Of a DNA stretch of 64,000 nucleotides, positions 51,546 through 54,089 are shown in pieces. Under the pieces are notes generated by a model, which did no database searches, was not told where the DNA came from, and saw only the letters and a list, made by a program, of their open reading frames with translations. This DNA comes from Brachybacterium sillae (GTDB lineage Bacteria; Actinomycetota; Actinomycetes; Actinomycetales; Dermabacteraceae): positions 1,364,001-1,428,000 of the forward strand of contig NZ_JAFEUW010000001.1 of the NCBI RefSeq assembly GCF_025028335.1, in the 5' to 3' direction. The first letter of the stretch is position 1, and each line of letters begins with the position of its first letter. The translations under genes and the position numbers were made by a program.

Positions 51546-54089
51546 GTGGTCCGGGCCGAGAACGGGACACTATCTGGAGTTCTTGAGGGCAAGAAGCAGT
51601 ACCAGGTGCCGCTCTACCAGCGCGTGTACTCCTGGGGAAAGAAGCAGCTTGACCAGCTTTGGGTCGATGTTGCGGAGTTGGCCGACACGCTACGCACCGA
51701 CCCGAAGGCGTCCCACTTCATCGGGTCCCTGGTCCTGGCCAGCAGCCCGGACTCCGGCACGATCGGCATCCAGAAGTATCTCGTCGTCGACGGTCAGCAG
51801 CGCCTGACGACGTTGACCCTCTTGTTGGCCGCGTTGCGAGACCATCTGTACGAAGTCGGCGACGTCGAACGCGCCCAGGGGATCGATGCTCAGTACCTCA
51901 TCAACGTGTACGACGCCGGCAAGCCGCACAAGGTGGAACCCACGCAGGCCGACAGGGACGCGTACAGCGCGGTGCTCGGGCGGTCGCCGTCGGCGGGCGG
52001 CGAGGACAACATCGGGGAGGCATACCGGTTCTTCCGGTCGCGCATTGCAGCGGCCGACGACCCTGACGACCCACACGATCTCGCACTGATCGAGGCTGCC
52101 GTCGTTCGAGGGCTCGCGCTCGTCGTGGTCACGGCGGAGCCCGGCGACAACGCGCACCGCATCTTCGAGTCGCTCAACAACACGGGACTCCGGTTGACGC
52201 AGAGCGATCTGCTCAAGAACTACCTCTTCATGCGGCTCGGAGACCGGGCCGCGACGGTGTACGCCAACGTGTGGGTGCCGCTCGAGAAGCGCCTGGACGC
52301 GGACAACCTCGAGCTGCTGTTCTGGCTCGACCTCGTCCAGACGGATGAACGGGCCAAACAGTCCGACACGTATATCGGGCAACAGCGCCGACTCGAGCAG
52401 CTCACCACCGCTGAGCAGATCGAGGCCGAGGTCCTGCGCGTGGCCAAGCTCGGTGACGTCCTCGCGACGATCCTGAACCCGGAGGGGGAGCCGCACCCCG
52501 AGGTGCGACGCCGGCTGACCAGGATCCGCGCATGGGGGTCGACGACGGCGTACCCCGTCGTGATGCAGATCCTCGCTCGTCGTGCGGCCGGGACGGCGAC
52601 CGACGACGAGGTCGCCGCCGCGCTGACCATCCTGGAGTCGTACTTCGTCCGGCGCATCGTCATCGGCCGGGCGACCGCCAACCTGAACAGGACGCTGCTC
52701 GACGCTGTTGGTCACGTGAGCGCTGCGGAGCGTGTCGATGTCGGGCTGCGCGACTACCTGTCCCGCGGCCGGAAGTACTTCGCCACCGACAAGCAGGTTC
52801 GTGACGCGGCCACCAGTGTGGCGTTCTACTGGCAGGGGCGCGCGGCCCAGAAGAAACTCATCCTGCAGTGGCTGGAAGAGTCGTACCGACCCAAGGAGAT
52901 CGTCAGCCTCGACCCCCGGCACCTGACGATCGAGCACGTCCTGCCACAGACGATGACGCCCGCGGTGCGTGCGACGCTCGCCTCGTCTCTGGCACCCGGA
53001 GCCGACGTCGACCTGGAACACGAACGCCTCGTGCACACGCTCGGGAACCTAACGCTGAGCGGCTACAACAGCGAGTTGAGCAACAAGCACTTCGACGAGA
53101 AGCGTGAACTGCTCGCGAAGAGCGGTGTGGCGATGAACCTCGAGATCGCGAAGTCCGCGACCTGGGGACCGACGGAGATCACGGCACGCGGTGAACGCCT
53201 CGCCGAGCGCATCATCGAGCTCTGGCCGGGCCCGGACGAGAAGCTCGTCGGACCCGGCGACGAACCGTCAACGATCCGGACACAGGTCGCTGCGATCGTC
53301 GCGGCGATCCCCGCGGGGCGATGGACCACCTACGGCGACGTCGCGCTGGTCGCGAGCACGGGCGCGCAAGCACTGGCCCAGATCATCACCACCTACCCCA
53401 TGGCGAACGCCTGGCGCGTCCTCCAGAGCGGAGGGGCCGTCTCTCCGGGCTTCCGGTGGTCCGAACCCGGCCGGACCGACGACCCGCGCGACGTTCTGGA
53501 AGACGAGGGAGTGACCTTCGGCGCCGACGGGCGTGCCGATGCCGCGCAGTTCATCGGTGCCGAAGAACTTGCGGCTGAGGCTGGACTCGATGTCGATGAG
53601 GCGACCGTGGCTGCGTGGCGCGCACGCTCGCACGGAACAGGCTCCGGCGGATCGAAGGTCACCCCACTCAGACTCGCGCGCCGAGAGTTCTTCAGAAAGG
53701 TCAGAGAGGCCGGGCTCGCTGGGGCACCGCACGTGGCCGGCTGGCGCACGCCGCCCCTCCACTACTGGTACGACGTGGCCGTGGGCGACTCGCGATGCCA
53801 CATCTCCCTGCAGGTCATCACACACACGAAGACCCTTCGAGCGATGTTGTGGATCGTGAACGACATGGAACTCTTCGAGGCACTTCATAGTCGACGAGAG
53901 GCCATCGAGGCGGACCTCGGCTTCACGGTCGAGTGGGACCCCATGCCGGAGCACAACGCGTCGAAACTCGAGGTCACCCGTCCAGGGGACATCTTGGACG
54001 ACGCCGAGGTCCCCGAATTGGTCGAGTGGTTCGTCGAAAAGGCCGACGCTTTCGCCAAGGTGCTGCCCGCGTACCTCGCGGATGTCTGA
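51546..54089 (+). CDS. GmrSD-like protein: DUF262 + HNH (DUF1524) + alkyltransferase-like + DUF4268
   Basis: 847 residues from GTG 51546, with GAGGAGA 5 bp upstream. Residues 1-230 are DUF262: [40 protein letters not shown] (DGQQR nucleotide motif), [20 protein letters not shown]. Residues 380-550 are the DUF1524 nuclease: [19 protein letters not shown] and [20 protein letters not shown], with the H and N residues of an HNH site. Residues 575-650 resemble the MGMT/ATL DNA-binding domain ([28 protein letters not shown]), but the PCHR cysteine is replaced, as in non-catalytic ATL proteins. Residues 700-847 fit DUF4268. GmrSD enzymes cut modified phage DNA. The ATL and DUF4268 additions suggest recognition of altered guanine; that is inference. 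Confidence 0.82.

Follow-up and report, generated by a model that had tools for sequence, protein, structure and literature searches.

A single-chain GmrSD-family protein of Brachybacterium sillae with an altered alkyltransferase-like domain and a DUF4268 tail

Type IV enzymes are a main bacterial defence against phages whose DNA is modified, and any new reader found among them points to a naturally relevant modification. In the sections of two papers that describe the GmrSD family, its members share a DUF262 domain with a DGQQR motif followed by an HNH nuclease domain of DUF1524, mostly in one chain (PMC4619093, PMC10952713). The first of these sources mentions homologues with one or two extra domains, and its section 12 (Machnicka 2015) names DUF4268, DUF4357, and DNA_binding_1 (PF01035), the last mainly in Streptomyces. 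DndI and SspE, which act with phosphorothioate genes, are described in the relevant passages as DUF262 and HNH proteins that lack an alkyltransferase-like domain (PMC10952713, PMC11662687). According to the same passages SspE detects its mark with the N-terminal portion of the protein (PMC10952713), and DndI is restrained on self-DNA by its mark rather than activated by it (PMC11662687). Alkyltransferase-like proteins (ATLs) form the other point of comparison—the part of a review that deals with them gives an arginine finger and a tyrosine as conserved (PMC10779285).

Here we describe a gene in a 64,000-nucleotide stretch of Brachybacterium sillae DNA (the window) whose 847-aa product carries GmrSD_N, GmrSD_C, DNA_binding_1, and DUF4268 in that order, all above the Pfam cut-offs (Table 1); the original prediction of four modules in one open frame, with an ATL-type domain in third place, is thereby borne out. 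The frame is uninterrupted from 51210 to 54089 (+), and the GTG at 51546 is most likely the protein start, since conservation sets in there in most relatives of full length, which also begin at this point. The DNA_binding_1 match (residues 578-656) is barely above its threshold (E 7.3e-7, 29.4 bits against a cut-off of 27), and the DUF4268 match (PF14088) reaches 62.2 bits against 27. Among five domain-bearing relatives scanned, one (L020) exceeds the DNA_binding_1 cut-off and the other four (L024, L033, L034, L042) fall 0.2-2.2 bits below it; our own profile of the ATL-like domain matches these four clearly despite their Pfam scores. The architecture is not a chance one, since relatives at 58-72% identity span the full protein length and a profile of the third segment picks out solved ATLs first. 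Among the best 25 of 38 PADLOC matches, the Orf5, HEC-06, mREase_IV, and SspE models fall on the core and PDC-S11 on the tail; an NCBIfam scan of the protein gave a single match, far under its cut-off.

Table 1. Features of the gene and of its two flanks, in window coordinates.
Feature	Position	Strand	Evidence or remark
Whole gene, single-chain GmrSD-family protein, 847 aa	51546..54089	+	GTG start
GmrSD_N / DUF262 (ParB-like NTPase-sensor domain), residues 11-228	51576..52229	+	Pfam E 8.6e-35
DGQQR motif, residues 82-86	51789..51803	+	invariant in 27/27 aligned proteins
GmrSD_C / DUF1524 HNH nuclease domain, residues 414-554	52785..53207	+	Pfam E 8.1e-23
ATL-like (AGT C-terminal) domain, residues 576-684	53271..53597	+	Pfam, profile, Foldseek
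Y596, conserved tyrosine of AGT/ATL	53331..53333	+	Tyr in 50/56 domains
Q608, arginine finger position	53367..53369	+	profile alignments
A622, alkyl-accepting cysteine position	53409..53411	+	no Cys in 56 domains
DUF4268 domain, residues 712-843	53679..54074	+	Pfam E 7e-17
ORF ending in sulfatase gene remnant, outside enzyme, left breakpoint	50905..51369	+	Pfam Sulfatase positions 1-68 of 301
ORF with glycosyl hydrolase family 2 (GH2) remnant, right breakpoint	54082..54492	+	Pfam Glyco_hydro_2_C positions 51-96 of 302

Compared with the GmrSD family, the protein has an ATL-like and a DUF4268 domain in addition. GmrSD homologues carrying DNA_binding_1 and others carrying DUF4268 were listed in 2015, so the individual parts are already known; the DNA_binding_1 homologues share their first three modules with the 847-aa protein. 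Section 12 does not state, however, whether DNA_binding_1 and DUF4268 occur in one chain, and that section does not mention the arginine finger (PMC4619093). The original prediction knew of no studied enzyme with this order, which holds for the literature searched—where we found no functional study of a GmrSD-ATL-like fusion—but has to be read beside the homologues listed in that section. This is a real and conserved branch of GmrSD enzymes that is apparently still uncharacterised.

The call of a GmrSD-type nuclease is well supported by the Pfam architecture and by invariant NTPase and HNH residues. The DUF262 motif reads VDGQQR in the 847-aa protein, in line with the (I/V)DGQQR of the family, and E463, H464, N501, N508, and N513 of the DUF1524 HNH domain are invariant in all 27 aligned proteins; these presumably include the catalytic residues. 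Foldseek on a predicted full-length model (pLDDT 83, pTM 0.55) ranks the DUF262-HNH defence nucleases DndI (PDB 9jfl, E 2.9e-16) and SspE (7drs, E 4.1e-13) highest for the core. By sequence, 9jfl again comes first, followed by an 818-aa 'DUF262 domain-containing protein' (20yv, 20yw) and then SspE; BrxU, which has a solved structure, does not appear among the sequence or fold matches listed. The reading we prefer, and hold with moderate confidence, is that of a stand-alone single-chain GmrSD-family restriction or nicking enzyme, probably modification-dependent (type IV), with an altered ATL-like reader. The DUF262 domain would bind and hydrolyse an NTP and gate the HNH nuclease, which would cleave DNA.

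Because no identified protein of solved structure lies nearer to the core than DndI and SspE, the protein might instead be a phosphorothioate-linked effector of their kind. We consider this very improbable. DndC (TIGR03183) was found in none of 29 genomes, made up of the host's and 28 in which relatives occur, in a search whose control genomes gave only sub-cut-off matches. One SspC model (PDLC02780) matched only short, weak stretches in nine of the 29 genomes (25-64 of 1045 model positions, E 6.6e-5 to 5e-4) and nothing in the host, with no control genome above the cut-off. The two systems also bear on our preferred type IV reading—since the mark of SspE is sensed by its N-terminal part, DUF262 alone could be the reader, and since DndI is kept off self-DNA by its mark, modification dependence does not follow from the core.

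In the third segment the fold is kept and the key residues are gone. A profile of 27 domains searched against solved structures found ATLs first (2kif, E 4.2e-8; 3gva, E 1.2e-7) and then AGTs, and the ATL-like part of the predicted structure matched 2kif with a Foldseek probability of 1.00 (TM 0.63-0.65 of the target, E > 0.001). Pfam, profile, and Foldseek thus agree on the AGT C-terminal fold of the ATL family, and the MGMT/ATL match of this segment, whose lack had been named beforehand as refuting, is found in both sequence profile and predicted structure. Because the Foldseek E-values for the ATL-like and DUF4268 domains are above 0.001, the fold matches rest on probability scores, joined for the ATL-like domain by the sequence profile.

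The acceptor cysteine is replaced in both nearest ATLs, Atl1 (3gva) and the Vibrio ATL (2kif), and its predicted absence here is confirmed across the branch. In the 56 domains that cover 70 columns or more (two of 58 were dropped), the cysteine position holds A48, V3, G2, P1, R1, and S1, with no Cys at all—mostly Ala, then, and not Trp as in ATLs. The cysteine of the solved structures lies opposite A622 in four of five alignments (2kif, 3gva, 4zyd, 4zyg, 1sfe; 4zyd and 4zyg are one enzyme), 2kif being gapped there. What the original prediction did not mention is that the arginine finger is also lost: the finger arginine lies opposite Q608 in all five alignments, a residue that we take to correspond to R39 of Atl1, and the position holds Q30, V18, A3, R2, L1, G1, and H1 among the 56 domains. 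ATLs keep this arginine; here another residue stands in its place in 54 of 56, and the two exceptions (L033, L060) both lack the tyrosine, so that the tyrosine and arginine finger used for base flipping never occur together (0/56). ATL-style base flipping is therefore doubtful, and a domain with the ATL fold that fails in this defining pair is not classed by us as an ATL. Two positions before the finger, 40 of the 56 domains have Trp, Tyr, or His; the 847-aa protein has Gly.

These counts bear directly on the idea, part of the original prediction, that the protein recognises O6-alkylguanine or other bulky alkylation damage and cuts the damaged DNA. The profile and fold lie nearest to ATLs and the acceptor cysteine is absent, as such a sensor would have it, but the Tyr and Arg pair is missing from every domain, and the host genome already encodes two separate proteins of this family, a stand-alone ATL-like one that retains Trp and Arg and an AGT bearing PCHRV, both with Arg at the finger position. 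Defence genes among the neighbours of relatives (see below) likewise speak against a damage sensor. We found no support for alkylation-damage sensing and consider it improbable; recognition of O6-alkylguanine cannot be assumed from this domain, which fits a changed reader and a simple DNA-binding module alike.

Evidence for the pocket comes from column entropies. Eight pocket and loop columns, which we assigned from the human MGMT structure, average 0.74 bits, where the domain averages 1.72 (P 0.00065), or 0.93 bits (P 0.013) when the buried V625 and L626 are removed; the set was chosen after the column counts were known, and the P values are too strong because related sequences are not independent. 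Omitting seven 'degenerate' domains strengthens the test, but these were picked by the appearance of their pocket and are not counted as support. The recognition helix is not more conserved (1.99 bits against 1.80 for the rest). With its pocket columns conserved, the domain may have a changed reader role; in our preferred reading, with the cysteine and finger lost and the pocket wall kept, the domain may act on a base flipped by other means, on a groove or backbone feature, or on a pre-flipped or distorted site.

The pocket loop is missing in four rows (L057, L062, L063/L019, L069). In L063, which is the same protein as L019, both tyrosine and loop are lost while the open frame, core, and DUF4268 are kept, so the pocket is dispensable in that protein; L062 is similar, but with a stop. 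Together with the absent Tyr and Arg pair, the variable recognition helix, and the N-terminal phosphorothioate sensing described for SspE (PMC10952713), such rows suggest an alternative within the same enzyme class: the ATL-like domain could be a non-specific helix-turn-helix DNA clamp, with DUF262 doing all the sensing. We regard this as possible, if tentative, as a plain clamp has no need of pocket columns that vary less than the other columns of the domain, and as a reader can fill the same slot.

This last point concerns the position after the nuclease. Pfam assigns L036 the order GmrSD_N-GmrSD_C-RAMA-DUF4268, with RAMA at residues 624-724, in the place taken by the ATL-like domain in the 847-aa protein; PMC12839542 describes RAMA as reading modified bases. 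L036 thus resembles our protein in its flanking domains and in having a reader-type domain in the slot, and differs in having RAMA in place of the ATL-like domain and in its low identity (about 28% over the aligned part). In a further relative, L042, RAMA precedes a DNA_binding_1 match that falls just below the Pfam cut-off (own profile E 1e-29). RAMA is the best comparative hint that the slot holds readers, a hint drawn from a single architecture shared by two distant homologues that are nearly identical (L036, scanned with Pfam, and L037). The ATL-like domain of our preferred reading would occupy this slot as an altered reader, with its pocket wall kept. Going further, it may represent a new class of modification reader, in which an alkyltransferase pocket without cysteine and finger serves a GmrSD nuclease against a phage base modification not previously linked to this fold; the base would be opened by another residue (the Trp, Tyr, or His that most of the domains have just ahead of the finger) or by the nuclease core. 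We think this rather unlikely. If the pocket does read a modified base, evolution has made an immune sensor out of a repair fold; if it reads none, the branch shows clearly how a fold for recognising lesions can be reduced to a clamp on DNA. Point changes at the residues named above make pocket reading directly testable.

The DUF4268 models resemble ExsC-type (type III) secretion chaperones and YbjN (Foldseek 3kxy, 6vu7; E > 0.001). To judge from these models, DUF4268 would most likely serve in protein contacts or dimerisation, and not as a nuclease. It is also the least conserved module: mean pairwise identity among 19 sequences with both ATL-like and DUF4268 domains is 82% for GmrSD_N, 73% for GmrSD_C, 68% for the ATL-like domain, and 51% for DUF4268. 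A second DUF4268 protein is encoded elsewhere in the host genome.

The distribution of these modules was followed in relatives from an initial genome-collection scan of 28 loci and from sampled genomes. Counting the host's own genome each time, matches were found in 11/396 genomes of a phylum sample and 2/38 of the genus sample (E <= 1e-40), and in 19/394 of a class and 16/396 of an order sample (E <= 1e-60). Adding one plasmid locus and removing three duplicates gave 67 proteins including the 847-aa one (the core-only L039 lies outside this count). The four-module order, whose absence from homologues had been named beforehand as refuting, is present in 23 of them (three, L030, L062, and L064, in broken or partial frames); 22 have the ATL-like domain with another shared tail (e.g., L023:10014-10496, L020:10038-10532), 13 have it with neither tail, two have DUF4268 without it, and seven have none of these modules. 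All relatives were found with the 847-aa protein as query, so these shares are biased towards its architecture. The alternative tail had no Pfam match in the two proteins scanned (L020, L024). Homology between this tail (7 loci) and DUF4268 (17 rows) was considered and rejected, at an hhalign probability of 0.1% from two sets that are small and made of similar sequences; by eye, the strand and helix order is alike. Two proteins (L024, L031) extend about 80 residues beyond the alternative tail.

A core tree of 61 of the 67 rows, rooted at the midpoint, places all 20 rows with ATL-like and DUF4268 domains and usable cores in one clade (100/100), nested in a 51-row clade in which every row has the ATL-like domain (100/99); long branches and the root make the deeper order unsure. 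Three ATL-like rows lie outside the 51-row clade (L042, L072, L073), and tails changed more often across the tree. On the simplest reading of this tree, the ATL-like domain is old within the branch and DUF4268 was gained once, later. Within the literature searched, four points are new: the pair of Tyr and Arg is lost across the branch, the pocket is conserved by contrast, RAMA can take the same slot, and the proteins with DUF4268 form one clade.

The gene itself forms a cassette of some 2.7 kb flanked by a gene remnant on either side, as DNA matches from the genus break within the sulfatase and GH2 genes. On the left, matches that reach the sulfatase gene stop near 51347-51368, and many others cover the preceding gene only; on the right, they begin near 54097, inside the GH2 gene. 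The GC content is 66.3% here against 69.1% for the window. An ORF of 1413 bases occurs in four copies (3222-4634 and 4756-6168, both +; 9822-11234 and 27221-28633, both -; 43-61 mismatches to the first), the first of which is a DDE_Tnp_1_4 transposase, and another DDE_Tnp_1_4 transposase lies at 56506-57885. A decaying, functionless insert in a transposase-rich region would fit the remnants on either side, as well as the other genus genome with a match, which at the cut used has only a split core (G403:C1:625524-627024, L043 and L044), apparently broken over two open frames. That reading is most improbable for a gene with a full open frame, kept catalytic residues, and end-to-end alignment with relatives at up to 72% identity.

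A phage or plasmid home was also considered and rejected: four phage records (E <= 1e-10) match the core only, with a best coverage of 64%, and of six plasmid records (E <= 1e-40) the best, a Streptomyces plasmid, has 43.9% identity over 79% of the query. On the plasmid of Streptomyces sp. NBC_01012 (L074), an integrase gene and a type I-E CRISPR gene lie no more than 6 kb from the ATL-like GmrSD gene.

ORF clustering over the 28 loci and the window found no family besides the gene itself in more than four loci, though a partner might be missed because several loci end at contig ends. PADLOC defence models did match among 116 neighbour ORFs of the relatives alone (57 + 59, of 155 listed), spanning BREX, DISARM, and type I and type IV restriction models. 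Among the 25 commonest families per half were BrxL, PglZ, PglX, BrxA, DrmD, mREase_IV, and a type I methylase and nuclease; the helicase models DrmD, BrxHI, and ZorD1 may mark the same proteins. In three Arthrobacter-group loci (L005, L006, L030), two more genes, DUF262-like by eye, adjoin the gene downstream.

Elsewhere in the window, overlapping ORFs at 55411-56339 (-), beside the gene, match HepT-like and nucleotidyltransferase families and are likely a toxin-antitoxin pair, with a nucleotidyltransferase that we take to be of the MNT type. A single 1012-aa ORF at 16714-19752 (-), with matches to cytidylyltransferase, CBS, NeuB, SAF, and a xylose-isomerase-like TIM-barrel, may be a multi-domain enzyme for nonulosonic-acid sugars, lying in a polysaccharide region.
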